Source: Saprospiraceae bacterium
Lineage (GTDB): Bacteria > Bacteroidota > Bacteroidia > Chitinophagales > Saprospiraceae
NCBI GenBank assembly: GCA_029262995.1
Contig: JAJCYH010000006.1
Location: forward strand, 1-64,000
DNA length: 64,000 bases
Direction of reading: 5' to 3'
Of this stretch, positions 5,275-62,949 are shown one piece after another. Numbering within the stretch: position 1 is the first letter of the stretch; each line of letters begins with the position of its first letter. The notes under the pieces are model-generated. The model saw only the letters and a list, made by a program, of their open reading frames with translations. It had not been told where the DNA came from and did no database searches. The position numbers were made by a program, and so were the translations under genes.

Positions 5275-5441
5275 AAATCAGAATATTCTATATTCAATAA
5301 ATAATTTAATGATATGCCTTTGCAGTATTAATTATTATTGAATGCATACCTATATATAAAATTGAAGTGCTGCGTGTTTGTTTATCCTTAATCAGATAAG
5401 TGAATTAAATTGTAATTGAATAATATTAACACTCCCTTTTT

Positions 5442-5473
5442 GCCGGAGTAATAGTCCTTACTCCGGCTTTTTT
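5442..5473 (+). terminator. Rho-independent terminator of the SprB-repeat gene
   Basis: A perfect 10-bp stem, GCCGGAGTAA paired with TTACTCCGGC around a six-base loop, is followed by six T on the + strand. It lies 170 bases after the stop codon. The last codons of the decayed minus-strand DUF2130 gene overlap it. Confidence 0.85.
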
Positions 5474-6551
5474 AATGCTTCAATATAACTAATTGAATTT
5501 CCTGCTAGTCCTTGTATAGATCCATACATTGAAGAAGTGTTGAGAAGTACTATTGGAATTTGCTTTTCTCTTTGGTTCCAAATCTTCTGCATCGCATTTT
5601 TTACTTTTTCCAAATCATTTTGCATTTGAGTGGAGCCTTCGACTATTCCTTCTACTTGAAGTTTGAATTCATAACTGGTAAGATAGGCATAAAGCATTTA
5701 CATCTTGTCACCTTTATTAACTTCTGCCTCTTTAACTTTGTCAAGTCTTATTAGAGAATCTCTTAACACATATGAAAGGCTTTTGAATTGATCGAAGTAA
5801 CATATCTAATTAGCATTCAGCATTCCCATTCTTTCAAAACCCTTAGGATAGGACTGCGTGACTAGGACCCCAACATCATTGACGATCGATCTGATGTCTG
5901 CTTTGAATTTTTCTATCCAGCTAGGTTGGAAGTCTTTAGTTCTTTAACTTTCGTAGTAGATGAGGCCACAAGCCAATTTGATTCTTGTATTTATTACTTG
6001 TATACAACCTCCTCCTCTTGCCCTTTCTTAATTTCTTCAATTTTATCTAATGGAAAGTTTTGAGATAAAAAGTCAGTCCTCTATCACCAACTCATGGACT
6101 TGTCCCTGCAGCTGCGTAGAGCCTTGCTCAGACTTTCTCTTCATCTCTACTATCAGTGCCTTTTGTTGTTCAAGCATTTTGTCCTTCTCTAACAATTTCA
6201 TTTGAACTTCTTAATGCGACCTTTTCTGAATTTGTTCTTCTTTAACAATTGGTTCTTCTCTGAGCTAGCATTGGAATTTAAGTTGTAGATCTTTATCTAG
6301 TTCTTGAATTTGTATTATCAGTTTTTCAAGCTGTATCTATTTGTCTCTTCGAAACCCTTCATCTGTTCCTCGAGTAAGTTTTTGGATGTATTTAGGTCTT
6401 TGATCCACTCTTCTTTTTTCTTTTGAAATTCTTTTTTTATCCTAGCTTTTAGTTTGCTTGCTACATTTTCTTCAACATCAAAATTAAATTGACAATTAGG
6501 GCAAGTGATTTTTTCTATCGAATTAATAGTTTTCAGCTTATCGAATAACAA
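5458..6551 (-). pseudogene. Decayed DUF2130 gene
   Basis: Pieces of one DUF2130 protein (PF09903) follow in the right order on the minus strand but in different frames. The N-terminus (6551-6318) has the family zinc-type motif CPNCQFNFDVEE and a Lys/Glu-rich coiled coil. A middle piece near 5940-5815 reads WIEKFKADI, GVLVTQ and PKGFERMG. Near 5790-5700 it reads YVLRDSLIRLDKVKEAE. The end (5697-5458) reads YAYLTSYEF, MQKIWNQREKQI and MYGSIQGLAG. An in-frame TAA separates the last two pieces (DKM, stop, MLYAYLTS), and other stops and frame changes lie between 5820 and 6320. The total span would give about 365 residues, shorter than the usual 400 or more, so deletions are likely too. It cannot be translated as one protein. 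Confidence 0.85.
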
Positions 6552-6597
6552 ATATAAAGCATATAATACAGCATGATTTATCTAAAAGAAATATTCT

Positions 6598-6679
6598 GCG
6601 ATAGGGATAGTAGCGGGTTCTCCAAAGGAGATATGAGCGTATAGCCCGATACTGATCTGAATTATAAAGATCAGTAATC
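6598..6679. repeat. Intergenic palindromic element plus hairpin
   Basis: On the minus strand this reads ATCGGGCTATACGCTC, a small hairpin CTCC-TTT-GGAG (6620-6630), then CCGCTACTATCCCTATCGC. From memory this layout (GGGCTAT-CGCT, central hairpin, CTATCCCTATCGC) resembles short structured intergenic elements of Bacteroidota genomes; that match is recall, not a search. Beside it, GATACTGATCT (6648-6658) pairs with AGATCAGT-A-ATC (6668-6679). The unit sits just downstream of gpsA, so it may form the 3' end of that transcript. It has no U-tract. Confidence 0.45.
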
Positions 6680-6685
6680 GCCCAA

Positions 6686-7717
6686 TCAAATAAAATCTAC
6701 ATCGATTTCTAGAGGATTGTTCACCAACTCTAAAAGTGCTTTGGTTACACTATAATCTTCATAGACAACTTTGTATAGGGTAGTGGTGATTGGTGCTTTC
6801 AATTGGGCAGATGTTACGATACGGTAAGCAAATTTTATCGTTCTATAACCTTCAGCAACCTCATCCATTGTTGATAATATCTCTGACACCTTTTTACCTT
6901 CTGCGAGATGGCTCCCAAAAGTGTAATTACGACTTTGATTACTTGTTGCGGTTGCAATAAGGTCTCCTACACCAGCAGTACCTAAGAATGGTCTAATTTC
7001 GGCCCCTACGGCTTTTGCAATAATTATCATCTCTCTCAATCCTCTGGTTAAAAGCAAGGCTTCCATATTTTTTCCAAATCCAAGTTTGTTCATTATCCCC
7101 GAAGCTATAGCTATTATGTTTTTTAAGGCACCGGCAAGTTCTATTCCTTTCAGATTATACGAACCGTAGACGATAAACTCTTTGGATGAAAGCACTTCCC
7201 TCCCTATTTGTATGACTTCATCAAATTCTGAGGCTATTACAGTTGCAGCGGGTTGTCCTGCTAAAATTTCTTTTGCAAGGTTTGGTCCTGCCAAAGCCCC
7301 AGTTCTGATTACACTGGTTTCTTGACGAATGACCTCACTCATTGTGAATACAGTCTTTTTAATTGTTCGTATATCTACAGCACGTTCAAATTCTTCAGAA
7401 ACATCTAGACCCTTGGTACCGTGAATCATTAAATGCCCCGGGCCAACATGAGGAGCTAAACTTTTAATGGCGTCACGAAAATTTTCTGATGGCAGGACAG
7501 GAAAAATAAGAGAACACTCCTTGCCTATGTTTTCAATATGTGATGTTGCACTTATGCGAGTGCTAAGCTTAAAGTCTTTAATACAATTGTTATTATTGAT
7601 ATTATTGACAATTTCAGGTCTTCTGCTATACATTAACACATCATTGTTTTTGGAAAGCAATCGAGCGATTGCAGTACCAAATGAACCAGCACCCAAAACT
7701 CCTATACGTCGATTCAT
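6686..7717 (-). CDS. gpsA: Glycerol-3-phosphate dehydrogenase (NAD(P)+)
   Basis: Reduces dihydroxyacetone phosphate to sn-glycerol 3-phosphate for phospholipid synthesis, in the cytosol. The N-terminus has the Rossmann motif GVLGAGSFGTAIA, followed by MYSRRPE. The middle has TKGLD, GALAGPNLAKEI and the catalytic-lysine region GALKNIIAIASGI, and the C-terminal part has GTAGVGDLIATATS and SRNYTFG, all family signatures. Length is 343 residues, normal for GpsA. I chose the ATG at 7717 over the TTG two codons upstream because the conserved N-terminus starts directly after it. It stands alone between the decayed DUF2130 gene and yidC. Confidence 0.95.
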   Translation of the reverse strand: MNRRIGVLGAGSFGTAIARLLSKNNDVLMYSRRPEIVNNINNNNCIKDFKLSTRISATSHIENIGKECSLIFPVLPSENFRDAIKSLAPHVGPGHLMIHGTKGLDVSEEFERAVDIRTIKKTVFTMSEVIRQETSVIRTGALAGPNLAKEILAGQPAATVIASEFDEVIQIGREVLSSKEFIVYGSYNLKGIELAGALKNIIAIASGIMNKLGFGKNMEALLLTRGLREMIIIAKAVGAEIRPFLGTAGVGDLIATATSNQSRNYTFGSHLAEGKKVSEILSTMDEVAEGYRTIKFAYRIVTSAQLKAPITTTLYKVVYEDYSVTKALLELVNNPLEIDVDFI

Positions 7718-7811
7718 GATCAATATTAGATTAGCTGTATATAAATCTTAGCGATTAAATTACTTTAAAGAACTTAAATTAAAGTAAAGCAATCAAAGCT
7801 TGACTGAAATT

Positions 7812-9692
7812 TTATTTCTTTTTCTTTTTTTGTTGGGCTTGTTTTTTCTGAATTTCTTGTTGTTTTTGCATGGCTTGTTCCAGCTTTGTTTGAAAACCGC
7901 CTTTCTTTTTGGGTTTTGATTTTGCTACCATCAGCTGCTCTCGAATTTTACTTTCATCAAAAATAAAGTTTTTAGTGACGATGGTTTGACCCACATTAAA
8001 TAAGTTACTGAAAAACATATAACAGGTTAATCCAGAAGCATAACCATTAAAGAAAACAAGGAAGGTAACAGGCATTAGATACTGTATGTATTTCATGGCA
8101 GGGTTAGCTGACATATCCATATGCTTCATGTTATAAAATGAATACAAAACAGTAGAGATTGCCCATAGGATTGTAAACAAACTGATATGTGATCCGAATG
8201 CAGGAATTTCAAATGGCAAGTAAGCAATAACATCATAAGAAGATAAATCCGTAGCCCAAAGAAAAGATTCTTGTCTAAAAGTTATTGAGGCAGGGAAAAA
8301 TCGAAATAGGGCATACCAAATCGGCATCTGGGCGATCATAGGAAGACAACCTCCTAATGGACTGACACCATATTCTCGATAGATTTTCATAGTCTCCATC
8401 TGAGATTTTTGAGCGTCGTCTTTGTATTTTTCTTTCAATCCTGCTAACTCAGGTTTAAGAGCTCCCATCTTGGCTTGGGAATAGAGCATTTTATACATCA
8501 GAGGATACAAAAGCATTTTAATGATGAAAATCAATACAATGATTACAATGCCTTTGCTGCCGATGTATTTAGAAAGAAAATTAAAGGAAGGTCTCATAAT
8601 CCAACGATTGATCGTTCCAAAAATGGATCGTCCAAAAGGTATGATTTGTTCCAAGCCATTATCGTATTTCAATAAGTTTTCAAACTCATTAGGACCGATG
8701 AATATTTCAAATTCTAAAGTTTGATTTCTAGTGATAGCCACCGGAATATCTCCTTCGGATTTTAACAATTTAAGATCTTCATTGTCATCTTCTGACATGA
8801 CTGTTTCAAATTGAGCGTTTTCAAACTTTACATTTTCAGTGATCAATGAAGTATTGAAAAACTGATTAACATGCGATACCCACTCAATTCTTTCTGTATT
8901 CACTACCTCTTGATCATCAGAACGGCATGAGCAATAGTCTGAATCTTCATTTACTTTTTTGAAATATACCGTAGAATAGTATTTTTCGAAATTGGTGTTA
9001 AGCTCGATTCTGTCTAGGTAATTATGCCAAACGAATCGGATTGCATTTTTTTGGTTATCCAATAGAAGGTCCATCCCTTCCAATTCTATGTTAAAGTCTA
9101 ATTGATAACCATTGTCTGCCAGACTATAGACTTGAGTTATAGATTGTCCAGGTCCCAGATCCGCTTTCATCCTGATGGTTTTACCTTTGACGGAAGGAGT
9201 GAAATATAAATCAGCAGTATTAATCGTACCGTAGCTTTTGGTAGGAAGTAAGAAATCAAATCTATTTTTTTTGTCCTCAAGAAGTGAAAGGGGAGATTTA
9301 GTTCTGTTATGAAGTGAATCTTCTTCAACCTTCATATGGTTTTTAAGGACTGCTTCCGAAATCTTTGCCCCTTTTGAATCAAAGAAGATTTTAATGTCTT
9401 TGTTTTCAAGGCTGGTAATTTTAGACTCTCCAACCATGGCTTGAGCTATTGTGCCATAACTACCTTCAAGTTCAGTTCTACGTAAAGAGTCATTGACTGT
9501 AGGAACTTCTTCTTTTATTAATGGTTGCTTGGTAGAACTGTCGGTGCTTTTCTCCATTAACTTCACCTGAGTTATTGAATCTTGCATGGCTTCAGCTCGT
9601 GCTATTTCTGCAGTGGAAGGCTTGGTGTAGATGTAATAGCCTACGAAAACGATAAAAAGTAGAAGTACACCTATTCCCTGATTTCTGTCCAT
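7812..9692 (-). CDS. yidC: Membrane protein insertase YidC
   Basis: Inserts and folds inner-membrane proteins, alone or with SecYEG. The first membrane segment (GIGVLLLFIVFVGYYIYT) is followed by a large periplasmic beta-domain (to about 350). The conserved 60KD_IMP core then runs through INRWIMRPSFNFLS, GIVIIVLIFIIKMLLYP, SPLGGCLPMIAQMPIWYALF, a third hydrophobic hairpin, and a very Lys/Gln-rich tail ending in KKKKK, usual for Bacteroidota. With the ATG at 9692 the protein is 626 residues and begins MDRNQG. An upstream in-frame ATG (9773) adds 27 non-family residues, and the promoter -7 element at 9731-9738 lies between the two, so the shorter form is preferred. Confidence 0.95.
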   Translation of the reverse strand: MDRNQGIGVLLLFIVFVGYYIYTKPSTAEIARAEAMQDSITQVKLMEKSTDSSTKQPLIKEEVPTVNDSLRRTELEGSYGTIAQAMVGESKITSLENKDIKIFFDSKGAKISEAVLKNHMKVEEDSLHNRTKSPLSLLEDKKNRFDFLLPTKSYGTINTADLYFTPSVKGKTIRMKADLGPGQSITQVYSLADNGYQLDFNIELEGMDLLLDNQKNAIRFVWHNYLDRIELNTNFEKYYSTVYFKKVNEDSDYCSCRSDDQEVVNTERIEWVSHVNQFFNTSLITENVKFENAQFETVMSEDDNEDLKLLKSEGDIPVAITRNQTLEFEIFIGPNEFENLLKYDNGLEQIIPFGRSIFGTINRWIMRPSFNFLSKYIGSKGIVIIVLIFIIKMLLYPLMYKMLYSQAKMGALKPELAGLKEKYKDDAQKSQMETMKIYREYGVSPLGGCLPMIAQMPIWYALFRFFPASITFRQESFLWATDLSSYDVIAYLPFEIPAFGSHISLFTILWAISTVLYSFYNMKHMDMSANPAMKYIQYLMPVTFLVFFNGYASGLTCYMFFSNLFNVGQTIVTKNFIFDESKIREQLMVAKSKPKKKGGFQTKLEQAMQKQQEIQKKQAQQKKKKK

Positions 9693-9730
9693 GTGTGTTT
9701 CTCTTGTTGGTTGAATCTTAAAAAACGCTG

Positions 9731-9738
9731 CAAAGTTA
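9731..9738 (-). promoter_or_regulatory. Promoter -7 element (TAACTTTG) for yidC
   Basis: The minus strand reads TAACTTTG, a perfect match to the Bacteroidota -7 consensus TAnnTTTG, about 40 bases before the ATG at 9692. No convincing TTG -33 box was seen at the usual distance. It decides the yidC start in favour of the shorter protein. Confidence 0.55.
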
Positions 9739-9845
9739 CAATTTTGAGACTTTGAAGCGCAGATTAAACGCATTTTCTTAAGAATCAGGTTCAGATGATC
9801 TAGGAATCAACCTGAAATACAAAGAAGGCTTTGAATTACAACCCT

Positions 9846-10862
9846 TTAAGGGTTCAAAGATACATCGCCATCTCCAATCAGAATGCGAACTTGAGCTGTT
9901 GAATTAGAGGATGTTCTTAATATTTTGTGATGTTTTTCATTGGTTACATAGCTGAACTTATTGCTTTTGGCGTTTATATCAGCATCTTCAGAGTCAATTA
10001 CAATTTTGGCTTCTCCCTTTAATTGCAAGTTAATGTCTCCATCTTCTGAACTTATTTCATAATTGCCAAAATCCTGGGAATCCAAACTTAAATAGACATC
10101 ACCATCCTCAGTTTTAACCAATAACTTATTTGATATTATATGATTTAAGTGTATATCTCCATCTTCTGATACTACATAAAAATCTCCTTCACCTTCATCA
10201 ATCACAATGTCACCATCTGAGGTTCTAACTCTGATATTGGAGTTAGTCCCTCCTGATATTGAAATATCACCATCTTCAGTGATAATATCTGAATTGATAA
10301 GATTGCAAGCAGTACCAATCAGATTACCATCATCTAGTCTTATGTTTAAGCTAGTATTACATTCATTAATAAATAAATCTCCGTCTTCCAAATGAATAAG
10401 CATGTTTTTGGAATTACAATTTGATATCTTCACATTTCCGTCTTCACCATTTAATTGAATATCTCCATTTACACCGGTGATTTGGTAATCGTCATCATCT
10501 CCTTTCAACTTTAGGTTAATATCGATAGGAATAATAATATCGACTTTGTAGGTGATTATTTTTGTCCAACTAATATAATAATCCGATTTTTTGTGCTCTT
10601 TAATATATAGGTCCCCATTGTTGTTTTCAATTTCAAATTTAAAATCTACATTATCTTTCTTTCCTTCAATTTTTCTCTCCACTTTAAGTTGTACTACATC
10701 AGTATTCCCGGATTGAATATTAACAATTGCATCATTGGTTTGCAGATAAAGGGTCCCATTGGTTTTGATTGGATAACTGGAATCCAGAATATAAGAACTT
10801 TGTGCGTAGCTGATCAAATTGGAACATAGAATGATTACCAAAACTGAAGAAAAATGTCTCAT
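9846..10862 (-). CDS. Secreted DUF4097-type beta-repeat protein
   Basis: 338 residues with a signal peptide ending near ISYAQ. Most of the chain is a run of about a dozen short repeats of the form (S/T)-E-D-G-D-(I/V)-x-(I/L), for example TEDGDISISG, SEDGDIHLNH, TEDGDVYLSL and SEDGDINLQL, ending with GDGDVSLNP. This is the pattern of DUF4097/DUF4098 proteins, which are predicted to fold as a parallel beta-helix or stacked beta-sheet and are often linked to envelope stress or antisigma loci. The regularity of the Asp/Gly pairs suggests turns that could bind calcium (inference). No partner gene is adjacent, so the role is unknown. Confidence 0.75.
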   Translation of the reverse strand: MRHFSSVLVIILCSNLISYAQSSYILDSSYPIKTNGTLYLQTNDAIVNIQSGNTDVVQLKVERKIEGKKDNVDFKFEIENNNGDLYIKEHKKSDYYISWTKIITYKVDIIIPIDINLKLKGDDDDYQITGVNGDIQLNGEDGNVKISNCNSKNMLIHLEDGDLFINECNTSLNIRLDDGNLIGTACNLINSDIITEDGDISISGGTNSNIRVRTSDGDIVIDEGEGDFYVVSEDGDIHLNHIISNKLLVKTEDGDVYLSLDSQDFGNYEISSEDGDINLQLKGEAKIVIDSEDADINAKSNKFSYVTNEKHHKILRTSSNSTAQVRILIGDGDVSLNP

Positions 10863-10978
10863 ATGATTTCTTTTTTATTATAAAATATAAAATGACAGTT
10901 ATAAAGTCCAGAATTAAACGCAAGAAATAGATGAACAGTACACTTTACCGTATGAATATTTGTTTATTTTGATGCGAA

Positions 10979-12538
10979 ATGGTAAAAGAAGTAGAAATTA
11001 AAGTTAATCCGGAGTCTATAAATGACTCTGCACAAATTGAGACATTGGTCAGAAATGCTGTCAATTATTTTAAAAAAGATGGCCTTTCATTTAAGCTAGT
11101 TAAAAAATCTATTGACTCCAGACGAGCGAAACCTTTTTATCTTTTAAGATTTCTGGTAGGTGTCAATGAGCCTATTGAAACCGATGCTGAAAAAATAAAG
11201 CTTAATTATTCTACTTCTGCTTTACGCAAAAATGTAATTATTATTGGTGCTGGACCTGCTGGGTATTTTGCAGCTTTGGAGTGTCTTGAACATGGTCTTA
11301 AGCCTATTGTGCTTGAAAGGGGCAAAGATGTGCAATTGAGAAGAAGGGATCTTAAGGCTATTCAACAAGATGGCATTGTGAACCCTCATAGCAATTATTG
11401 TTTCGGAGAGGGTGGAGCAGGAACTTATTCTGATGGGAAACTCTATACCAGATCAAAGAAAAGAGGCAAAATTGTTAAGACACTAAAGATACTGGTTGAT
11501 CATGGCGCCAAGGCAGATATTCTTTATGACTCACATCCTCATATTGGATCAAATAAGCTACCGGGTATTATTACTGAAATTAGAAAAACAATAGAAGCTT
11601 ACGGAGGCGAGGTTAGATTTGATAGCCATGTAACGGATTTCGTATTTGATCAAAACTCTTGTAAAGGAGTTGTTATCAACGATAAAGAAGAATTGAGTGC
11701 AGATGCTTACGTTTTGGCTACAGGGCATTCTGCTCGTGATATTTTTGCATTGTTTGACAAACATGGTAAATCGATGGAAGCAAAGCCATTTGCCATGGGA
11801 ATACGAATTGAACATCCCCAGGAATTAATTGATGAGATTCAGTATGGACAAAAGCCTAGGGAAGGGAATCTTCCTGTAGCTAGTTACAGCCTTGTTAGTC
11901 AGATAAAGGGAGTTGGTGTTTTTTCATTCTGCATGTGCCCTGGTGGATTGATTGTTCCTTCAGCTACAGCTCCTGGTGAAATTGTCGTAAATGGAATGAG
12001 TTTGTCTAGACGGGATTCCGCTTTTGCTAATTCAGGGATAGTGACAGAATTGTCAACAGAAGAATTGCAGTCTAAAGGTTTTGATGGTGTTTTTGGCAAT
12101 GTAAATTTCCAGAAAGAAGTAGAGCAGAATATTTTTAAATATGGTGATGGTAGTCAGAAAGCACCAGCGCAAAATCTGATTGATTTTGTTAATGGTAAAA
12201 CCATGCTAGAGTTAAATGACTCTTCATATATTCCAGGTCTTTACAGGGCTCCATTACATGAGTTATTGCCTGATTTTATTTATGAACGTCTAAGGGATGG
12301 TTTGTTGAGTTTTGCATTGAAGATGAAACCCTATTATACCGATGCAGCGAATGTTGTTGCAGTAGAAAGTAGAACGAGCTCACCAATCAGAATTCCTAGA
12401 GACAATACAAACTGCAATCATCCAGAGATAGCAAATTTATTTCCTTGTGGAGAAGGTGCTGGATATGCGGGGGGTATATTATCTGCAGCTATGGATGGTC
12501 AGCGAGTGGTTAAAGCCATTGTTGGCGTATTGGCTTAA
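10979..12538 (+). CDS. FAD-dependent dehydrogenase of the COG2509 type
   Basis: 519 residues. The N-terminal 75 residues are a small alpha/beta domain with a Lys/Arg-rich strand (VKKSIDSRRAKPFYLLRF). The dinucleotide-binding motif VIIIGAGPAGYFAALE follows near residue 85-105, with VLERGKD for the FAD ribose. Then come the group's signature CFGEGGAGTYSDGKLYTR, an ATG-type motif YVLATGHSARD, and a C-terminal FAD contact PCGEGAGYAGGILSAAMDG. These are features of a widespread family annotated as an uncharacterised FAD-dependent dehydrogenase or flavoprotein oxidoreductase. Its substrate is not known and the neighbours do not suggest one. It is divergent from the DUF4097 gene. Confidence 0.85.
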   Translation: MVKEVEIKVNPESINDSAQIETLVRNAVNYFKKDGLSFKLVKKSIDSRRAKPFYLLRFLVGVNEPIETDAEKIKLNYSTSALRKNVIIIGAGPAGYFAALECLEHGLKPIVLERGKDVQLRRRDLKAIQQDGIVNPHSNYCFGEGGAGTYSDGKLYTRSKKRGKIVKTLKILVDHGAKADILYDSHPHIGSNKLPGIITEIRKTIEAYGGEVRFDSHVTDFVFDQNSCKGVVINDKEELSADAYVLATGHSARDIFALFDKHGKSMEAKPFAMGIRIEHPQELIDEIQYGQKPREGNLPVASYSLVSQIKGVGVFSFCMCPGGLIVPSATAPGEIVVNGMSLSRRDSAFANSGIVTELSTEELQSKGFDGVFGNVNFQKEVEQNIFKYGDGSQKAPAQNLIDFVNGKTMLELNDSSYIPGLYRAPLHELLPDFIYERLRDGLLSFALKMKPYYTDAANVVAVESRTSSPIRIPRDNTNCNHPEIANLFPCGEGAGYAGGILSAAMDGQRVVKAIVGVLA

Positions 12539-12654
12539 GGTATTCAACTTATACTTTGGGCAATGAATAAATAATACGAATAGGGTTAAGATTAGATTCA
12601 TAGGAAAGTATCTTAATTGGTTTATTATAACAAAAACACTTAAAAGTAAATATC

Positions 12655-12753
12655 ATGGGTAAAGGTAAAGACGCAAAGAAAAACGTTAAAAAAGAATCCA
12701 CTAAAACGCCAAAAGAAAAGAAAGCGGAAAAGAGATTAAAGAAAGCTAAATAG
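12655..12753 (+). CDS. 32-residue lysine-rich small protein
   Basis: An ATG-started frame begins MGKGKDAKKN and ends LKKAK before TAG. Over 40 percent of residues are lysine, with no Cys, aromatic or hydrophobic stretch. Short MGKG-type basic peptides of this size occur in many bacteria; ribosome-associated bTHX is one such, though this one lacks the RRGK motif of bTHX. It starts 116 bases after the FAD gene and could be cotranscribed with it. RNA or ribosome binding is inference from charge only. Confidence 0.5.
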   Translation: MGKGKDAKKNVKKESTKTPKEKKAEKRLKKAK

Positions 12754-12846
12754 GATTATTCTACTCTAAGAGAGCTATGTACCAAAAAGAGTATGGTTAA
12801 TGGATGTTTATCTTAAGATTAACGACCAATCATTCAATATTTATTA

Positions 12847-13704
12847 TTAAGACACCTGGTCTAGATAATTAAAGATGGCGTTTTTAACTTCTGTGCTTTT
12901 TAATCTATGCCCAAAGCCTTCTGTCTGAATGAAAGTGCCTTTGGGCCAATTCTCAGCAATTAGTAAGGAATCTGAAAAGGGGAGGGTATTATCATTAATG
13001 TCATGTATAAGCAAACCCTTTAGCTGAATGTTTTTAATAAGATTGTAGGAATTGAAATACTCAGGCTCTTCGAGGTATTCGGATTTCAAGTTTTTATAAT
13101 ATTGCTCTTTAATAGTATCCCTCAACCCTAATAGCTTAAAAAAGCGATCCATAAATTTTACCATGTTTCCAGTTGGAGCCATTAGCAATAAATGTTTTAG
13201 GCTGGAGGATCTTTCTTTAGAATGAGCATAGATTAATGCAGAATAAGCACCTACGGAATGTCCTAAAAGAATGGATATATTAAACTTCTCAACCAAATGT
13301 GCGATGGCATCTGCATACAACTGAGGTGTAAAATATTTTCCACTAGATAGTCCATGCGCAGGGGCATCCAATGCATATACATCAAACCCCTTGTCTATGA
13401 GTGTGGAGAGATAAGGCTTCCATCTGACAGAGCTGCTTTCCCAACCATGGATCAATAAAATTTTCTGTCCATTGGAAGGCCATCTGTAGTAGGCGATTTT
13501 ATCATTATTAACTTCAAAATACCCGTCTAATTCTTGGTGTAGATAGTCAGATTGAGATTTTTTTAGTTTGCCTCCTCTAGGTTTTTTAAAAACTTTGAAA
13601 GTAATCTTTGCAGCAATATTTGTACTAAAAAAGGAGATGAAGTTTATTCCAAAACCATAGATAAATACCAATATTTTATAAACGATACGCTTCAATACTT
13701 TCAT
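12847..13704 (-). CDS. Alpha/beta-fold hydrolase
   Basis: 285 residues. A membrane-type N-terminus (about 6-30) is followed by a basic stretch, then the hydrolase core. It has the oxyanion motif LLIHGWESS (about 83-91), DAPAHGLSSG, the nucleophile elbow GHSVGA with Ser150, a probable acid in HDINDNTLPF, and a His in GFGHRLKS near the end. The family includes esterases, lipases and thioesterases; the substrate cannot be told. It is transcribed away from the DoxX-yjjG pair. Confidence 0.8.
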   Translation of the reverse strand: MKVLKRIVYKILVFIYGFGINFISFFSTNIAAKITFKVFKKPRGGKLKKSQSDYLHQELDGYFEVNNDKIAYYRWPSNGQKILLIHGWESSSVRWKPYLSTLIDKGFDVYALDAPAHGLSSGKYFTPQLYADAIAHLVEKFNISILLGHSVGAYSALIYAHSKERSSSLKHLLLMAPTGNMVKFMDRFFKLLGLRDTIKEQYYKNLKSEYLEEPEYFNSYNLIKNIQLKGLLIHDINDNTLPFSDSLLIAENWPKGTFIQTEGFGHRLKSTEVKNAIFNYLDQVS

Positions 13705-13828
13705 TTTATAAGTAATTAAGAACTAAACTCTTTTATGCGCATGAAGGTTCGCTTATTAATACTGTATAAGTCCTTAGAAAACGTCAAAATTAGCTTTCTT
13801 TGTGCTTTTAGTAAACTAAGCAAGAGAA

Positions 13829-14245
13829 ATGAAAAACAGCGCTGACTTAATCGGTCGTATACTAATAGGTCTTTTCTTTTTTTATCAAGCCTTTGATACA
13901 ATGGTATTCTTTGATGATACTAGAGATACATTAACGAATTATGGGATCCATTTTGCTCAGGATTTCTTGATCGTTGGTTCAATTATCCTATTATTAGTCG
14001 GTGCTATTATGGTCATCATTGGGTATTACGCAAGCATTGGAGCTCTGCTCCTGTTCATTTACTGGTTTGTCTTTACCTTGGTTGTTTACTCCTTTTGGAA
14101 CGATCCTGTTGATGTAAAAAACCTTCATTTGATATCTTTTATGCGAAATATGGCCTTATGCGGAGGATTGCTGATTATGGTAGCCAATGGCTCTAAGTCC
14201 TTTAGTGTCAAGCGAATATTGCATGTAATGAGATTGCCAAAATAA
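13829..14245 (+). CDS. DoxX-like membrane protein
   Basis: 138 residues with four hydrophobic segments and the DoxX-type start LIGRILIGLFFFYQAFDTM. The second segment (FLIVGSIILLLVGAIMVIIGYYASIG, about 48-72) and the third (LLLFIYWFVFTLVVYSF) match the family pattern, and the end has HLISFMRNMALCGGLLIM. DoxX/DUF417-type proteins are small inner-membrane proteins, some linked to thiosulfate:quinone or thiol redox; no such function can be assigned here. Its stop overlaps the next ATG (TAATG), so it is translationally coupled to yjjG. Confidence 0.75.
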   Translation: MKNSADLIGRILIGLFFFYQAFDTMVFFDDTRDTLTNYGIHFAQDFLIVGSIILLLVGAIMVIIGYYASIGALLLFIYWFVFTLVVYSFWNDPVDVKNLHLISFMRNMALCGGLLIMVANGSKSFSVKRILHVMRLPK

Positions 14246-14943
14246 TGATTTCGAAGACGCAGTTTGAATGGATATTGTTTGATCTTGACAATACCTTATT
14301 AAGTTTTACGAAGAGTTCATATAAAGCTTTTGAAGGTTTAATTCATGAATTAACAATTGATGTGCCAGCTTCAGAGTTATATCCCGTTTACTATGAAATC
14401 AATCACAAACTATGGGCCGATAGGGAAGGTGGATTGATTGGTCATGAGGAACTTAAATTGAAAAGATGGACATTGTTTTTTGATATGATCAAATATAAGT
14501 TTCCGTCTGACAAAGCAAATAGTATATATTTTGAGCTCCTAACACACAGTGTTGACTTTGTTGACGGTGCAGAACAATTGCTGGAACTACTTTTCGGCAG
14601 ATACAAAATGATGATTGTGACCAATGGATTATCTGAAGTTCAAAATCCACGCTTGGAGTCTGCTGGAATGAATAAATACTTTGAATTTATTGTTATCTCT
14701 GATGAAATTGGATTTCCAAAACCGCAGATTGAATTTTTTGAAAAATGTCATGAGATGATGGCTTATCCAGAAAAGGAATCTATACTCGTTATTGGAGATA
14801 CTTTGAGCTCAGACATCAAGGGAGCTAATGACTTTGGCTACAAAAGTTGCTGGTTCAATCACGATGATATCAATAACGAAACTTCCATTATTCCAGACTT
14901 AGAAGTGAAGAAACTTACTGAGCTTTTCAGATTTTTATCTTAA
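14245..14943 (+). CDS. yjjG: HAD-family YjjG-type pyrimidine 5'-nucleotidase
   Basis: Predicted to hydrolyse nucleoside 5'-monophosphates, in the YjjG subfamily that clears non-canonical pyrimidine nucleotides. The 232 residues carry HAD motif I (LFDLDNTLLSF), motif II (IVTNGLSE), motif III with the conserved Lys (EIGFPKPQIEFF), and motif IV (LVIGDTLSSDIKGAND). Length fits YjjG (about 225-230). It overlaps the DoxX-like gene by one base and converges with the K+ channel gene, overlapping it by 9 bases. Confidence 0.85.
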   Translation: MISKTQFEWILFDLDNTLLSFTKSSYKAFEGLIHELTIDVPASELYPVYYEINHKLWADREGGLIGHEELKLKRWTLFFDMIKYKFPSDKANSIYFELLTHSVDFVDGAEQLLELLFGRYKMMIVTNGLSEVQNPRLESAGMNKYFEFIVISDEIGFPKPQIEFFEKCHEMMAYPEKESILVIGDTLSSDIKGANDFGYKSCWFNHDDINNETSIIPDLEVKKLTELFRFLS

Positions 14944-15804
14944 GGAATCTCTCAGATGAGTGCCGCATATTTTACAATATCTTGCATCGGAATCATGATC
15001 CTCATACAGACAAGTTGAACATACTTGGGTGGAAACGCCACGGCCAAGTTTACGGGTTTTATAAGCTCGTGTGAATTCTGAAGTAACAATACCTGTGGGA
15101 ACAGCAATTACCGCGTAACCCATGATCATAATCAATGCAGCAATAAATTGACCCAAAGGCGTAATTGGTGCGATATCGCCATACCCCACAGTAGTCAAAG
15201 TTACAACTGCCCAGTAAACACTTCGAGGTATAGAATCAAAAGAGTCATTACTGGCAGATCCTTCGATCAAATACATGATACTGCCAAAAATAGTGACCAT
15301 GATAATTATGAAAGTGAGGAAGACTGTTATTTTGTTTCTGGACTCCTTGAGAGACTTCATGATTACCTGACTCTCAAATAAAAAATTACCGAGCTTGAAG
15401 ATTCTAAATACCCTCAATAGTCGCAGTGCTCTAATTACCATAAGACTGTGACTTCCAGCAATTAATATTCCAATATAACTAGGTAATATTGACAATAAGT
15501 CAACGATGCCGTAAAAGGAAAAAATATACTTCTTAGGAGAAAAGACCGTATATATTCTAACGATATATTCTATTGTAAAAAAAAAGGTGAATATCCATTC
15601 AAGCGTATAAAACAGGGTGTAATAATTATCATGAATATGAGGAACCGTTTCCAACATGACCACTATGACACTGGTAAATATTGCAATCAGCAATACGACG
15701 TCAAATAACTTACCTTCTTTAGTATCGGCCTCAAAAATGATTTCATGAAGCCTTTCTCGAAAGTCGCTTAATTTAAACGGTGTATGTTTTTCCTGACTTG
15801 ACAT
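14935..15804 (-). CDS. Voltage-gated potassium channel with C-terminal zinc ribbon
   Basis: 289 residues. Six transmembrane segments are visible between about 30 and 250. S4 (IRALRLLRVFRIFKLGNF) has basic residues at every third or fourth place. The pore helix and selectivity filter are VTLTTVGYGDIAP at about 205-217. After S6 (LIMIMGYAVIAVPTGIV) comes a short cytoplasmic tail holding two CxxC knuckles (CSTC and CKIC), a probable zinc ribbon, in place of the RCK domain common in prokaryotic channels. The ribbon may control gating or assembly (inference). The gene converges with yjjG. Confidence 0.88.
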   Translation of the reverse strand: MSSQEKHTPFKLSDFRERLHEIIFEADTKEGKLFDVVLLIAIFTSVIVVMLETVPHIHDNYYTLFYTLEWIFTFFFTIEYIVRIYTVFSPKKYIFSFYGIVDLLSILPSYIGILIAGSHSLMVIRALRLLRVFRIFKLGNFLFESQVIMKSLKESRNKITVFLTFIIIMVTIFGSIMYLIEGSASNDSFDSIPRSVYWAVVTLTTVGYGDIAPITPLGQFIAALIMIMGYAVIAVPTGIVTSEFTRAYKTRKLGRGVSTQVCSTCLYEDHDSDARYCKICGTHLRDSLR

Positions 15805-16105
15805 ATGGTAATCGAAGACCTAAAGTAAAAAAAAGAAAACTATACAACTACCAGTTTCATGGGATTAAAGAGAAATTTTAATTTCTCGGTTTTTGGAATG
15901 ACCCTGGCTTATCCATTAATTTAGCTTACGATGTATAGTCTTCTTAAATATATGGACTCCGGTTGGGAATTAATAACTACTCGGCAAATGTAAGAAACCA
16001 ATTGATATATTAAAGAAATTGTTAATGGGTATTTTTTATATAAAAAATTTATAAATATAAGATAATCAAATATGTACACATTATAAAAAATTATAATATG
16101 TTTAA
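15805..16105. other. 301-base AT-rich gap, nothing recognised
   Basis: The gap separates the K+ channel start from the DUF547 stop. The only structure I see is a short inverted repeat AGAAATT-TT-AATTTCT near 15870-15885. No open frame of useful length or promoter consensus was found. Confidence 0.4.
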
Positions 16106-17605
16106 TTAGAACCTAAAGAATCGCAATCCGATATTGAATGTATGTGCTTGTCGTCCCTCTGTTCCATCATAGAAATAGCTATAGAGCAACTCTGTTTCCA
16201 GAAAATCTGTCAGGTAATATTTGAACCCTCCTCCCAATTGACCGTATCCTGTTAAATCCCAGCTTGAGCTTAAATCACTGTTTTTTGTGTAAACGGGTTT
16301 GGCTGATATATTGATCAAGGTATAAAATGTTGTTTTCGGGCTAGGGAAATATGAATATATTGCAGTCACTGGCAATTGTATTTGCATAAAATGTGCTTCT
16401 TCTCCAGTTGAAAAATCAATATTTTCAACCCATAATCCGATATCAAAGAATAATCTACGCTTGAAGCTCAATTCCTTTTCTATATAAATATTATTGAAAA
16501 CCTGAAGGTTCTGAAAATCTGAATAGCCATAATCTATATTTCCTTCTGCATCGTTTAAGGGCACAAGATAAATACTGTGTAAAAAATTAATATTTGGTTT
16601 GCTCTTAAATGGCTGGTATTTGATTCTAGGACCTATTCCAGAAATTCCCGTCCTAGAAAATCTAATAGAACCTGGCTGATCAAATGGTTTATTGTCTAAT
16701 TCCAATGCACTGAACAAGCCCACATCACCTTGATTGACAGATCTGAATTTTACATCAAAGCCCCAATTAAAATTCTTGTTTGTACCAAATTGGAACTGGA
16801 AGAAGCTTGAGAAGAAATTGCTTCTTAGGTCATTGTCTGTTTGCGTATAATAGTTGTTAAATATTTTCAATTCACCCCCGCCTTTTTTATACAACTTAGT
16901 GGGGTAGTAGATCAGATAATCATCAGAATTTAAATCATTCAATGACCAATCGAAATTCTTATAGTTAAATATTAAAGAATTTAAATTGACATCAGCAAAG
17001 TATTGTTGTATGCCAGCAATCATTTCTTTCTCATTGCCAAAATCTTTTTGATGCCAGTAGAAAATTTTGGACAGACTAAACGCTTTATTTTTTATGGATA
17101 AAATGTTTTCGTCTTTAAGTTTATCCGTTATATAATCATCCAGTGCAATGGAAGAATCTAGGTAACTTAAAATAGGGCAGGATTTAGCACCACAATTAAG
17201 CAACACATGACAAAAGGCATTGGCTGATTTGTTAACGATATAAGTTTCTAATTTATCAAGACTTATGGTTTTGTCTCCAATCTTATGTTTCTTATCAAAG
17301 AAGCTAGGGACATCTTTAACAGAGGAGATAGGGTACTCACTTTTGATCGTGTATATCACCAAAAAGTTATAGACATTAATGAGGTGATGTGGCTTTACCA
17401 AACTATTTTCATCTAGGCTATAGTCTTCTTGCAAGTAGGCATACAATTTATCCAAACCTTCTTGTGGAATCGAAGAATAGTCCATGCTATTTTGATAATT
17501 GTGCTGTTGCAAAAGGGATTTGTAGTCGATCTCGAAGAAGGCCTTTTGTGAGAAACAGGAAGAAAAAAATAACAAGCAACAAATAAATGATATTAGTTTT
17601 TTCAT
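16106..17605 (-). CDS. DUF547 protein with C-terminal outer-membrane-like region
   Basis: 499 residues with a signal peptide (MKKLISFICCLLFFSSCFS; a lipobox-type Cys17 is possible). The first half is a DUF547 domain with NVYNFLVIYTI, GDKTISLDKLE and the family's hallmark CHVLLNCGAKSCPIL. The second half (from about 220) is rich in alternating aromatic and polar residues (FNWGFDVKFRS, LYSYFYDG) and ends in phenylalanine after LRFFRF, as outer-membrane beta-barrels do. The fusion suggests a periplasmic or surface enzyme-like domain anchored in the outer membrane (inference). No function is known. Confidence 0.72.
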   Translation of the reverse strand: MKKLISFICCLLFFSSCFSQKAFFEIDYKSLLQQHNYQNSMDYSSIPQEGLDKLYAYLQEDYSLDENSLVKPHHLINVYNFLVIYTIKSEYPISSVKDVPSFFDKKHKIGDKTISLDKLETYIVNKSANAFCHVLLNCGAKSCPILSYLDSSIALDDYITDKLKDENILSIKNKAFSLSKIFYWHQKDFGNEKEMIAGIQQYFADVNLNSLIFNYKNFDWSLNDLNSDDYLIYYPTKLYKKGGGELKIFNNYYTQTDNDLRSNFFSSFFQFQFGTNKNFNWGFDVKFRSVNQGDVGLFSALELDNKPFDQPGSIRFSRTGISGIGPRIKYQPFKSKPNINFLHSIYLVPLNDAEGNIDYGYSDFQNLQVFNNIYIEKELSFKRRLFFDIGLWVENIDFSTGEEAHFMQIQLPVTAIYSYFPSPKTTFYTLINISAKPVYTKNSDLSSSWDLTGYGQLGGGFKYYLTDFLETELLYSYFYDGTEGRQAHTFNIGLRFFRF

Positions 17606-59677: not shown

Positions 59678-60394
59678 TTATAGTATACTTTTCACTTTTA
59701 AATATAAGTTCCCAATCATTATCGCAATTCCAAAACTCAATAGTGTACCGATCAATATATACTCTGTTAATTTTCTGTCTACAGAGTCTTTTAAGTCACC
59801 AAATCTAAATACAGATTTAGCTACTAACAGAAATCCTATTCCTTGTAAATTTCCGCTCATAATAAACCCAGATACAAACAATCTTTCTAAAACTCCAATA
59901 TAGCTTCCTGCGTTAGATAGAGAGTCGTCATCTCCATCTTCATTTTCTGGATGCCATTTTGATATTATCACTTTTATAAAATGTGAACTCACTGTTGTAA
60001 TTAATAGTATTGCCAAAACGAATAGCATTATTTGATTATGGCTTATTCCTTGAACAGTTTTCGCAATCCATGGAGAATAATAGTCAGTAATTGTTACGAT
60101 CACTCTGATGTGCATTAATTGATCAATTATAAATACAACTCTTTTGTTTTTGTTGTCTTGATTATAGAGCTTCCATGCATCAATGATTTAATGTGACCCT
60201 ACTAATAAACAGATACTCTTCCAGTATTCTGTTGACATTGTTATTGCAAATGTTAATATTCCATGTGTCAGTACATGGAAGTATAGCTGTTTTGAGTTTA
60301 ATTTCTTCTCTTGTTTATTCTTTAGTGTTTTTTTCGTTTGCAGTAAAAAATCACCAATGAAATGTGCAATTAAAAATTTTATAAATAATATCAT
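59678..60394 (-). pseudogene. DUF3307 membrane protein, split by one in-frame TAA
   Basis: Full span 238 codons. The N-terminal part reads FLIAHFIGDFLLQTKK, LNSKQLYFHVLTHGIL, as in DUF3307 (PF11750). After LLVGSH comes TAA, then IIDAWKLYNQDNKNKRVVFI and DQLMHIRV follow in the same frame and the C-terminal part SYIGVLERLFVSGFI, GFLLVAKSVFRFGDL, EYILIGTLLSFGIAI is intact. The family reads THY-IDLWKL here, so a Tyr codon was probably lost to TAA. The ATG overlaps the satD stop (ATGA), so the two are one operon. Confidence 0.85.
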
Positions 60395-61026
60395 TGTTGA
60401 TTTATCTTAATATTTAATTGTTCTATAAAATAGAATTGCAATATTTTAATTTCATCATAACCTGCCCTATTCAAACTCTCGCTTATTGTACTTTGAGATC
60501 TATTTAATTTTTTTGCAAGTTCAGTCTGAATCAAGTCGGAATGTTTTATCGCTTCAGTTATAATTTTTGCTGATGTAGATGTCCAATTATCTATTGTTAA
60601 TGAGAGTAGTCGTAAACTCAAATTCCACTGTTTGTCAAAATCTTCCCAAGGTGTTTTAATTGCTAACCGCCTTTTTTTTAATTTCTCAAAACAGATTCCA
60701 GAATTGGTATATGCTTCTCCATTTGATTCTGATATTCTACCTGTCCTAAACTGTTGCTTCCCTATGCCAATTGCAATCCTAACATCTAAATTTTTATTTC
60801 GCTTTATACTTGCTTTTATTTCTATTGCCGTTTGGAGTGCTTCATGAGGTTTAACCTCTAATTGAAACATGTCTCCTCTAAAGATTTCGCAGTTATTTGG
60901 AGATTTGCCCTTTTCATTAAGAATTAACTTTAGGTTTTTCAACCATTTTGTTGCATCACTTTTCCTTGATCCAATTATATCTCCTGTTATTATGGCTATC
61001 GTTTGATTTCTCATTGTTTGATTCAT
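60391..61026 (-). CDS. SatD family protein (cyclase-like domain plus HTH)
   Basis: 211 residues from the ATG at 61026 (a second ATG at 61014 is also possible). A longer frame to 61188 adds a non-family leader and runs through the operator array, so it is rejected. The N-terminal domain has AIITGDIIGSRK, FRGDMFQLEV, VRIAIGIG and NGEAYTNSGICFEKLK. The C-terminal third has a helix-turn-helix (LAKKLNRSQSTISESLNRAG, 170-189). SatD (PF16264) is a poorly known regulator family. It overlaps the DUF3307 gene by 4 bases. The operator array directly in front suggests that it controls its own operon. Confidence 0.82.
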   Translation of the reverse strand: MNQTMRNQTIAIITGDIIGSRKSDATKWLKNLKLILNEKGKSPNNCEIFRGDMFQLEVKPHEALQTAIEIKASIKRNKNLDVRIAIGIGKQQFRTGRISESNGEAYTNSGICFEKLKKRRLAIKTPWEDFDKQWNLSLRLLSLTIDNWTSTSAKIITEAIKHSDLIQTELAKKLNRSQSTISESLNRAGYDEIKILQFYFIEQLNIKINQQ

Positions 61027-61125
61027 TGTTTTGAACCGATAAGCAAATATATCGACTTTTAAACCGATGATCAAGAATATCGTCTTTAGAGGCGATAATT
61101 GAATTAATCGTAATTTAAGCCGATA
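61022..61125 (-). promoter_or_regulatory. Four TATCG-N10-CGATA sites at exactly 28-bp spacing before satD
   Basis: Sites of 20 bp, as read on the + strand, start at 61022 (TTCAT-N10-CGATA, a half-site), 61050 (TATCG-N10-CGATG), 61078 (TATCG-N10-CGATA, perfect) and 61106 (AATCG-N10-CGATA). Every start is 28 bases from the next, with 8-base spacers AGCAAATA, ATCAAGAA, ATTGAATT and ATTTAATT. The first site covers the ATG at 61026. The array is a strong operator candidate for SatD or another dimeric regulator; this is inference. Confidence 0.7.
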
Positions 61126-61374
61126 ATTTAATTTAGAGGCAAGATTGCTTGCCTGCTGATAGCTAAGTATATAACAAGAAAGCAGCATATTAAAAAAAGC
61201 TTTAGTTTTGCGGCTGCATTTTTCAAAAAGAAGCTAAAGAATGATAGTAGAGGCAATGGTGCGATGAAGAATACTTATTGGTACTCACCCCAACGAATAA
61301 AGTAGAACCACAAATTATATTTTAAGATTAAAAAACAAAGCTGGAGAACGGCTTTAAGTATATAATATATATAA

Positions 61375-62949
61375 ATGAACAAGTATTTAAACCTATTTGA
61401 TTTTAAGCAAAAAGTAGATTACAGGATCGAAATATTATCAGGACTTACCGTTGCATTGGCTTTGGTTCCTGAGGCGATTGCTTTTGCTTTGATACCTGGA
61501 TTTTCTCCATTAACAGGACTTTATGCTGCCTTTGTTTTGGCGCTTGTTACCGCTATTTTGGGAGGTCGTCCTGGGATGATTTCTGGTGCTACAGGTGCTG
61601 TTGCTGTAATTTTTGTTGGTTTAATTCTTGAATTGAAGAGACACTTTCCAGGCATAAACCCTCAAGAGATATTGCATTATGTATTTGCCACGGTAATTAT
61701 TGCAGGATCTATTCAGATTCTTGCTGGGGTATTACGATTGGGTAAATTTATAAGACTGGTTCCACATCCAGTCATGTTTGGATTTGTAAACGGATTGGCT
61801 ATAATAATATTCATGGCTCAGTTTCCAAACTTTTATGTCAAAGGCACCAATGATTTATTAAGTGGAATGTCTATGTTTTCTATGTTAGGGCTCACGATGT
61901 TGACTATGGTGATTATCTGGGGCTTCCCTAAAATTTCAAAGGCAATTCCTTCATCATTATTGGCTATAGTTGTTGTTTCTGCAATTGTGTTGGGATTTGG
62001 TATAGAAACTTTAACGGTAGCAGACACCATGAATGCAGGGGAAAGTATCAAGGGTGGATTTCCTCCTATCAGTATCCCACAAATTCCATTTACATTAAAG
62101 ACACTACAGATTATACTTCCATATGCGGGTATTGTAGCTGGTGTTGGTTTGATTGAAAGTTTGTTGACTTTAAATATTATTGATGAAATTACTGAAACAA
62201 GAGGAAGAGGGAATAAAGAATGTGTAGCGCAGGGAGCAGCTAATATATTATCGGGGTTTTTATCAGGGATGGGGGGTTGTGCAATGATAGGTCAGAGTCT
62301 GATCAACATCTCATCTGGCGCACGAGCGCGATTATCTGGCATAACTGCCGCTATTATGCTATTGGTCTTTATTATGTTTGGTTCAGGACTAATCGAGCAA
62401 TTGCCGATGGCTGCTTTAGTAGGGTTAATGTTCATGGTTGCCATAGGTACTTTCGAATGGGCTAGCTTCAAGACTTTTAAGAATATGCCTACTTCGGATG
62501 TCGTTGTAATGGTGTTAGTGACTTTAATTACAGCGATCACCCATAACTTAGCAATAGCAGTTTTACTAGGTGTAATAATTTCAGCTTTGGCTTATTCATG
62601 GGAAAATGCCAAGAGGATACGTGCTAGAAAACATATCGATGAAAATGGAGTAAAGCATTATGAAATTTATGGTCCTTTATTTTTTGGATCGACAGCTTTG
62701 TTTGCTGAGAAATTCGATCTTCAGAATGATCCTGATGAAGTTATTATAGACTTTCAGGAAAGCAGGGTAGCGGATATGTCAGGTATTGAAGCTTTGAATA
62801 AGTTAACAGAAAGATATGCAAAGCTTGGTAAAAAAATACATTTAAAGCATCTTAGCAAGGATTGTCGCAGACTGTTAATAAATGCAGATGATATTATAGA
62901 AGTTAATGTTATGGAAGATCCTACCTATAAGGTTGTAGTTGATAAGTAA
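61375..62949 (+). CDS. SulP family anion transporter with STAS domain
   Basis: 524 residues with about 12-14 membrane segments. The SulP signatures are ILSGLTVALALVPEAIAFAL and GLYAAFVLALVTAILGG, then GATGAVAVIFVGLI, GFVNGLAIIIFMAQFP and AGVGLIESLLTLNIIDEIT. The cytosolic STAS domain (about 420-520) has FFGSTALFAEKFD and VIIDFQESRVADMSGIEAL. The family carries sulfate, bicarbonate or other anions; the substrate is not fixed by sequence. It stands alone. Confidence 0.92.
   Translation: MNKYLNLFDFKQKVDYRIEILSGLTVALALVPEAIAFALIPGFSPLTGLYAAFVLALVTAILGGRPGMISGATGAVAVIFVGLILELKRHFPGINPQEILHYVFATVIIAGSIQILAGVLRLGKFIRLVPHPVMFGFVNGLAIIIFMAQFPNFYVKGTNDLLSGMSMFSMLGLTMLTMVIIWGFPKISKAIPSSLLAIVVVSAIVLGFGIETLTVADTMNAGESIKGGFPPISIPQIPFTLKTLQIILPYAGIVAGVGLIESLLTLNIIDEITETRGRGNKECVAQGAANILSGFLSGMGGCAMIGQSLINISSGARARLSGITAAIMLLVFIMFGSGLIEQLPMAALVGLMFMVAIGTFEWASFKTFKNMPTSDVVVMVLVTLITAITHNLAIAVLLGVIISALAYSWENAKRIRARKHIDENGVKHYEIYGPLFFGSTALFAEKFDLQNDPDEVIIDFQESRVADMSGIEALNKLTERYAKLGKKIHLKHLSKDCRRLLINADDIIEVNVMEDPTYKVVVDK

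Follow-up and report, generated by a model that had tools for sequence, protein, structure and literature searches.

The analysed window, a stretch of 64,000 nucleotides, carries on its minus strand a satD homologue followed by a gene of the DUF3307 family, the operon partner expected of a SatD family member (Table 1). The DUF3307 stretch matches PF11750 (E 2.9e-14) and runs into a TAA in its own frame, which may mark a pseudogene or an assembly error. One relative (G775) is likewise reported with one TAA. On the other side of satD lies the array of palindromes that is the subject of this analysis, and beyond it a divergent gene for a SulP-type permease.

Table 1. Features of the satD locus, in coordinates of the window
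Feature	Position	Strand	Remarks
Open frame past TAA	59678..60115	-	PF11750 match continues in the same frame beyond the TAA; the ORF alone has no Pfam match
DUF3307 gene (PF11750)	60188..60394	-	start overlaps satD stop; in-frame TAA at 60188-60190
satD homologue	60391..61026	-	211 aa, or 207 aa with the ATG at 61014 as start; domain of predicted nucleotide-cyclase fold, then C-terminal HTH
Degenerate operator 4	61022..61041	-	arm TATCGG retained, other arm lost
Putative Bacteroidota -7 box	61044..61051	-	TATATTTG (TAnnTTTG), +8.5 from operator 3 dyad, the dominant family register
Operator 3	61050..61069	-	CATCGGTTTAAAAGTCGATA; final two bases open the putative -7 box
Putative -33 element TTG	61072..61074	-	20 bases before the -7 box
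Operator 2	61078..61097	-	TATCGCCTCTAAAGACGATA; sole strict TATCG-N10-CGATA among the four units
Operator 1 (distal)	61106..61125	-	TATCGGCTTAAATTACGATT on the satD sense strand
SulP-type permease gene	61375-62949		diverges from satD; promoter about 250 bp from the array

Upstream of satD, the window holds an array with a period of 28 bp. Its four units at 61029-61140, which read TTATCGGCTTAAATTACGATTAATTCAA, TTATCGCCTCTAAAGACGATATTCTTGA, TCATCGGTTTAAAAGTCGATATATTTGC and TTATCGGTTCAAAACAATGAATCAAACA on the satD sense (minus) strand, follow one another at start-to-start steps of 28, 28 and 28, and spacers of 8 bp separate neighbouring 20-bp palindromes. The preliminary description of this DNA had judged such regularity to be beyond chance, and this is borne out: the top self-similarity lag is 28, with a score of 19.5 that none of 30 dinucleotide shuffles reached at any lag from 12 to 60. 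It had also listed four TATCG-N10-CGATA sites, one of them over the start codon. The number of units, their step and their spacers hold, but the strict motif fits only one unit in four, the shorter ATCG-N10-CGAT fitting three. The last site does span the ATG (61026-61024), together with the inferred transcription start (about 61039), but as a single arm.

We collected satD loci from genomes of relatives (20 of 198 genomes), of the class (55 of 395) and of the phylum (104 of 395, in a sample that overlaps that of the class), and added the 80 top-ranked of at least 558 matches in named genomes. For part of the sampled genomes, the phylum was inferred from named relatives. The collection comprises 217 loci, the window's own locus being counted several times, and 210 distinct proteins. 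Self-similarity was scored from -260 to +10 at lags 12-60, with 30 shuffles per locus. Across the 210 homologues its mean was 19.1 for lag 28 and 7.7 for lag 29, as against 4.6 in shuffles; a control region downstream of satD gave 4.2 for either lag. Elsewhere between 12 and 60, a clear rise was seen only at lags 56 (11.1) and 58 (5.9). All 30 shuffles were beaten by 166 of the 210, and the top lag was 28, 29, 56, 57 or 58 in 160 of these, which form our array set. This rate of 76% is a rate within the sample, because 4 weak rows of the class sample and 14 rows of the phylum sample (7 of these 14 from family f104) were left out, and because the named genomes contributed the best 80 of at least 558. 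The preliminary description had named a lack of such sites before other satD genes as counting against it, and on this point it stands for the spacing, and not for the motif: TATCG-N10-CGATA is not general, and the core of the site varies between genomes.

The fitted period is 28 bp in 133 of the 160 arrays and 29 bp in the remaining 27, whose proteins are longer (median 210 vs 201 aa). By a lenient count, three sites are present in 101 arrays, four in 38, two in 7 and at least five in 14. Between the end of the last site and the start, the median distance is 22.5 bases; in 10 of the 160 arrays the two overlap. The strict test was failed by 50 of the 210 homologues, some of which show a weak lag 28, and no array was found among the seven fetched members of family f104. 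We also tested eight plasmid records for periodicity. Those from Vibrio, Salinivibrio and Pseudoalteromonas have a lag of 28 and that from Enterobacter a lag of 29 (0 of 30 shuffles in each case), the Segatella record has a lag of 28 (1 of 30 shuffles), and the records from Pseudomonas fragi, E. coli (pEC34A) and Klebsiella have no significant lag of 28 or 29.

The site of the family is a 20-bp palindrome, mostly with an outer TAT, and with a variable core at positions h4-h6: CGG in 35 of the 160 loci, CGT in 23, CTG in 17, TAG in 16, TAC in 12, AAG in 9, ATG in 7, and others. Agreement across the dyad is 0.82, against 0.57 after a column permutation that keeps the period, and in 123 of the 160 loci none of 50 permutations reached the observed value. 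The core covaries with the protein. When mutual information was computed over 199 protein columns, the highest values were those of residue 179 for h4 (0.81) and h6 (0.87), and that of residue 176 for h5 (0.80), with column means of 0.24-0.28. Residue 179 scored 2.31, compared with at most 1.26 in 500 within-cluster permutations, a control that is mostly global because one cluster holds 132 of the 160 loci. A tree of the N-domain with 318 branches requires at least 65 changes of the core, and co-change with it is most frequent, out of 189 columns, at 176 (26 co-changes, 7.6 expected), 175 (22, 7.2 expected) and 179 (25, 9.2 expected); part of this excess reflects branch length, since the median z over columns is 1.51 for the core. 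Pairs of proteins were also compared by N-domain identity. At 45-60% identity, 29% of pairs with the same core (n = 709) and 83% of pairs with different cores (n = 5153) differ at residue 179; at 60-75%, the values are 11% (n = 171) and 69% (n = 727); and at 75-97%, they are 1% (n = 115) and 38%, the latter from only 13 pairs, with residue 156 ranking first in this range, above residue 179.

Several of these pairings can be written as rules. Residue 179 goes with h4 and h6: loci with E179 have C at h4 in 58 of 59 cases, those with K or R179 have C at h6 in 27 of 36, those with Q179 have G at h6 in 26 of 28, and those with G179 have the core CGT in 7 of 7. Residue 176 goes with h5, which is A in 22 of 25 loci with A176 and G in 66 of 79 with S or T176. 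For N176 (48 loci) there is no clear rule, h5 being T in 25, A in 14 and G in 9. When the exact three-base core was predicted leave-one-out, the helix stretch was right in 57 of 160 loci, the whole N-domain in 48, and other 10-residue stretches outside the helix in 11-30, a yield that speaks against a full code. With numbering from MRNQ, the window protein has T176 and E179, residues for which the rules predict CG at h4-h5; each of the six arms in its three full sites does carry CG there, and h6 varies among them. The pairing also changes in place. The same left neighbour of satD, an MscL-like protein (named by eye), recurs in 20 of 77 loci of the named genomes, and at this shared locus Q179/TATTAG (11), E179/TATCT(G or T) (6) and K179/TATTAC (2) interchange. 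One locus, L149 (Q179, TATTAT, mixed arms), does not fit the code cleanly; it is, like L111 and L112 at the same place, below the array threshold. Right neighbours form more clusters than left ones, and given the left neighbour shared by these 20 loci, mobility of satD is not general. Because the core covaries and co-changes with the predicted recognition helix, SatD very probably reads its own array, and the proposal in the preliminary description that the SatD HTH is the reader gains support from this covariation.

In flavobacteria, the sigma-A -7 box is TAnnTTTG, located at -12 to -5 according to a published study (PMC9723704). An exact TAnnTTTG is present in the upstream stretch of 99 of the 160 array loci, compared with 27 expected after shuffling, and 83 of 145 boxes, in 60 of the 160 loci, start exactly 8.5 or 6.5 bases past a palindrome centre. 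In 78 of these 83, the in-register box is carried by the last or last-but-one site. This overlap of palindrome and -7 box in a fixed register suggests autorepression. Repression is also the simplest reading for the window, because SatD on operator 3 would cover the -7 box, and we consider it likely. The strict spacing makes cooperativity plausible, and likewise the "tight" switch of the preliminary description. SatD could instead be an activator, or activate at low concentration and repress at high concentration, with the distal sites serving activation. The presence of at least three sites in 153 of the 160 arrays agrees with such a role, and the controller proteins of restriction-modification (R-M) systems act in this dual way, according to one account (PMC3115060). 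However, the position of the in-register box on the last or last-but-one site fits occlusion, and we regard activation as unlikely.

The 28-bp period could also serve promoter geometry in part. In the fuller form of this idea, which we hold to be improbable, tandem promoters (TTTG-N20-TAnnTTTG every 28 bp) would set the period with no protein lattice involved. Of the 83 family boxes, 37 do have a TTG at a distance of 20 or 21 bases upstream, so that two units together can make up a complete promoter. Yet the spacing is also significant in the three gammaproteobacterial records from Vibrio, Salinivibrio and Pseudoalteromonas, and the left arm and the core have no known promoter role. Gammaproteobacterial promoters differ from those of Bacteroidota.

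Two-site patterns of three operator types are found almost only at satD. In the window's own genome (3.77 Mb), ATCG-N10-CGAT-N10-ATCG-N10-CGAT does not occur outside the satD array, and the reversed control gives 0. The preliminary description had envisaged a regulon to be listed by counting sites genome-wide, and there the count was against it: relaxed single sites number 38 in this genome, compared with 44 in the reversed control, and thus give no sign of a single-site regulon. Among 296 phylum genomes, 7 contain the ATCG-class two-site pattern, which adjoins satD in 6 of the 7; the extra places are a second array in G275 and one in G634, away from known satD. The TTAC-class pattern, in a looser form, is present in all 11 chosen genomes of one genus and only at satD, these genomes having been chosen because their satD arrays are of the TTAC or a near class. 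For the TATAAG class, 9 of 11 chosen genomes have the pattern at satD, and G667 has one additional array. Together with the promoter-box overlap, this near-absence of two-site arrays elsewhere in genomes of the same code argues for autoregulation, as the preliminary description had suggested. Five genomes of the phylum sample have two satD rows, and in the three for which both rows were fetched (G269, G714 and G750) the sites differ between the two genes; among the loci of two-row genomes, L064 is below the array threshold and L207 lies outside the 28/29 set.

The individual extra places differ in character. The one in G634 (L239, G634:C101:12780-12825) looks like a run of ATCG-like repeats and is possibly due to chance. 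The one in G275 (L243, G275:C1, 418039-418084) is a two-site array in the code of the host SatD; it precedes a small lipoprotein-like frame (read by eye) in a prophage-like region, where 8 of 10 proteins scanned match PHROGs, and may be a second target, a decoy or a trigger. In G667 (L253, about 5217-16390), a 133-bp stretch with the satD operators and leader is present twice at 91% identity, and the copies flank about 11 kb containing a type I R-M system, whose methyltransferase is matched by two adjacent frames, and AbiEi/AbiEii.

The N-terminal domain of SatD is predicted to have a nucleotide-cyclase fold. The model of the 207-aa protein (pLDDT 96.3) places residues 174-183 in one helix and has a cyclase/palm fold in its N-terminal part. 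D12 and D48 are invariant and, by the strand order of the model rather than by superposition on a template, are predicted to lie at the end of strand 1 and in the turn between strands 2 and 3, where class III nucleotidyl cyclases carry their two metal-binding aspartates. The model is similar in fold to the bacterial cUMP synthase 7r65 (E 3.2e-3), a Pycsar enzyme, and a SatD profile over the cyclase-fold part matched no PDB chain at E 1. Membership of PF16264 is uneven: the window protein has no match at E 0.01 and L100, 71% identical to it, none at E 1, whereas L012, which aligns with the window protein at 45% identity almost from end to end, reaches 40.1 bits and L025 33.3 bits, above the Pfam cut-off of 29 bits. 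In the open-access literature, we found no paper on the operator or function of the SatD/DUF3307 pair.

A DUF3307-like motif is present in the ORF after satD in 199 of the 210 loci, and both motifs in 177. The DUF3307 protein is predicted to be all-helical and is probably a membrane protein. Its best Foldseek match to PDB folds is not significant, with an E of 3.1, and since one library and one model were used we make no claim of a new fold. A PADLOC scan of three SatD and two DUF3307 proteins at E 1 gave no Pycsar match and only weak matches to models of other systems, and the Pfam, NCBIfam and PADLOC scans included a weak HTH match to HipB (E 0.018). We favour signalling, perhaps in defence, as the role of the operon; one satD relative adjoins a defence island, and a defence role is at this stage only an idea. 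No SatD relative was found in phage records or in two scans of viral contigs, and E. coli genomes had no DNA match to the Enterobacter satD copy. A satD-like gene is one of five annotated genes on the 3.77-kb E. coli plasmid pEC34A (L225, NC_019077.1), alongside a hypothetical protein, a Rop family protein, mobA and DUF3307.

We propose, with good confidence in the model as a whole, that the array is the operator of SatD as an autoregulator. SatD, probably as a dimer, would dock on each 20-bp palindrome through its C-terminal HTH, with residue 176 reading h5 and residue 179, together with 175, reading h4 and h6, and adjacent dimers would sit at a fixed step of 28 bp, or 29 bp in some lineages. 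In the common arrangement, the outer TA of a palindrome doubles as the TA of the -7 box, so that SatD sitting there would keep RNA polymerase off and thereby repress transcription of satD and DUF3307. With this operon as almost the only target, operator and helix would be free to drift together, which would let the core change as often as the tree indicates while the spacing stayed nearly fixed. A ligand of the cyclase-fold domain, a nucleotide or another molecule, may control binding and thereby release the operon and DUF3307.

A more elaborate picture, which we rate a long shot, makes SatD a nucleotide-signal enzyme parked on DNA. The promoter array would be a docking lattice on which several cyclase-fold dimers take up set angles: with 10.5 bp to a turn, a step of 28 bp corresponds to 2.67 turns and three sites, covering 84 bp, to eight whole ones. 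A trigger, for instance phage DNA or a change in a nucleotide, would then free or activate this lattice, turning the operon on and producing a signal for DUF3307. Fast re-coding of helix and operator would keep modules orthogonal and hard for phages to mimic, and the prophage-like region of G275 with its two operators in the host code could act as a decoy or trigger.

As an alternative to the simpler proposal, in which SatD represses its own operon, another DNA-binding protein, such as a global regulator, could bind the array, with SatD only a target. Some columns outside the HTH do covary with the core, residue 139 for example; on the tree, so do residue 115 with the core as a whole and residue 22 with h6. 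Nevertheless, the predicted recognition helix of SatD contains the top-ranking column for each of the three core bases and also the three leading co-change columns; at the shared locus described above, a change of helix goes with a change of operator; and significant 28-bp arrays precede satD on the Vibrio, Salinivibrio and Pseudoalteromonas records. We consider another binder very improbable. Neutral tandem duplication or an assembly artefact can practically be dismissed, for although slippage can expand tandem arrays and one locus (L022) has many near-identical repeat copies, the step between units holds across genomes whose sites differ in sequence, the palindromes retain their dyad symmetry, covariation ties the core to the protein, and arrays occur in many separate genome records.

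If SatD is an autoregulator of this kind, the closest working parallel, by analogy, is the controller (C) proteins of R-M systems. C proteins are small stand-alone HTH proteins; SatD has in addition a domain predicted to fold like a cyclase, and its partner is probably a membrane protein. C proteins are described as HTH dimers on palindromic half-sites that form a cooperative, concentration-dependent switch with both activation and repression (PMC3115060) and as acting through an autogenous C-box circuit (work cited in PMC3874152). The covariation and promoter overlap seen for SatD lend support to a comparable role as a putative HTH autoregulator with palindromes at its own promoter. In contrast to C-boxes, SatD sites usually number three and are arrayed at 28 bp, and in the window no restriction endonuclease or methyltransferase is adjacent, the neighbours being DUF3307 and the SulP permease, whereas in the relative G667 a type I system adjoins. 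Autorepression through paired palindromes by antitoxins such as YefM-YoeB, the subject of a work cited in PMC3874152, offers a second likeness, with neighbouring palindromes at the module's own promoter, the module being one of two genes, but neither SatD nor DUF3307 received a toxin or antitoxin assignment above cut-off in Pfam, NCBIfam or PADLOC. From class III cyclases, GGDEF domains, the Cas10 Palm and the cUMP synthase 7r65, SatD differs by its fusion to an HTH.

Overall, the regulatory anatomy of a widespread gene pair is now defined, and its protein-DNA code can be read in part. The 160 natural operator-helix pairs share one nearly fixed geometry and include helix exchanges in place at one locus, so that the prediction and swapping of HTH specificity become directly testable. 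If SatD binds as predicted, a cyclase-fold protein would also be a DNA-binding autoregulator, which would narrow the possible roles of the operon.
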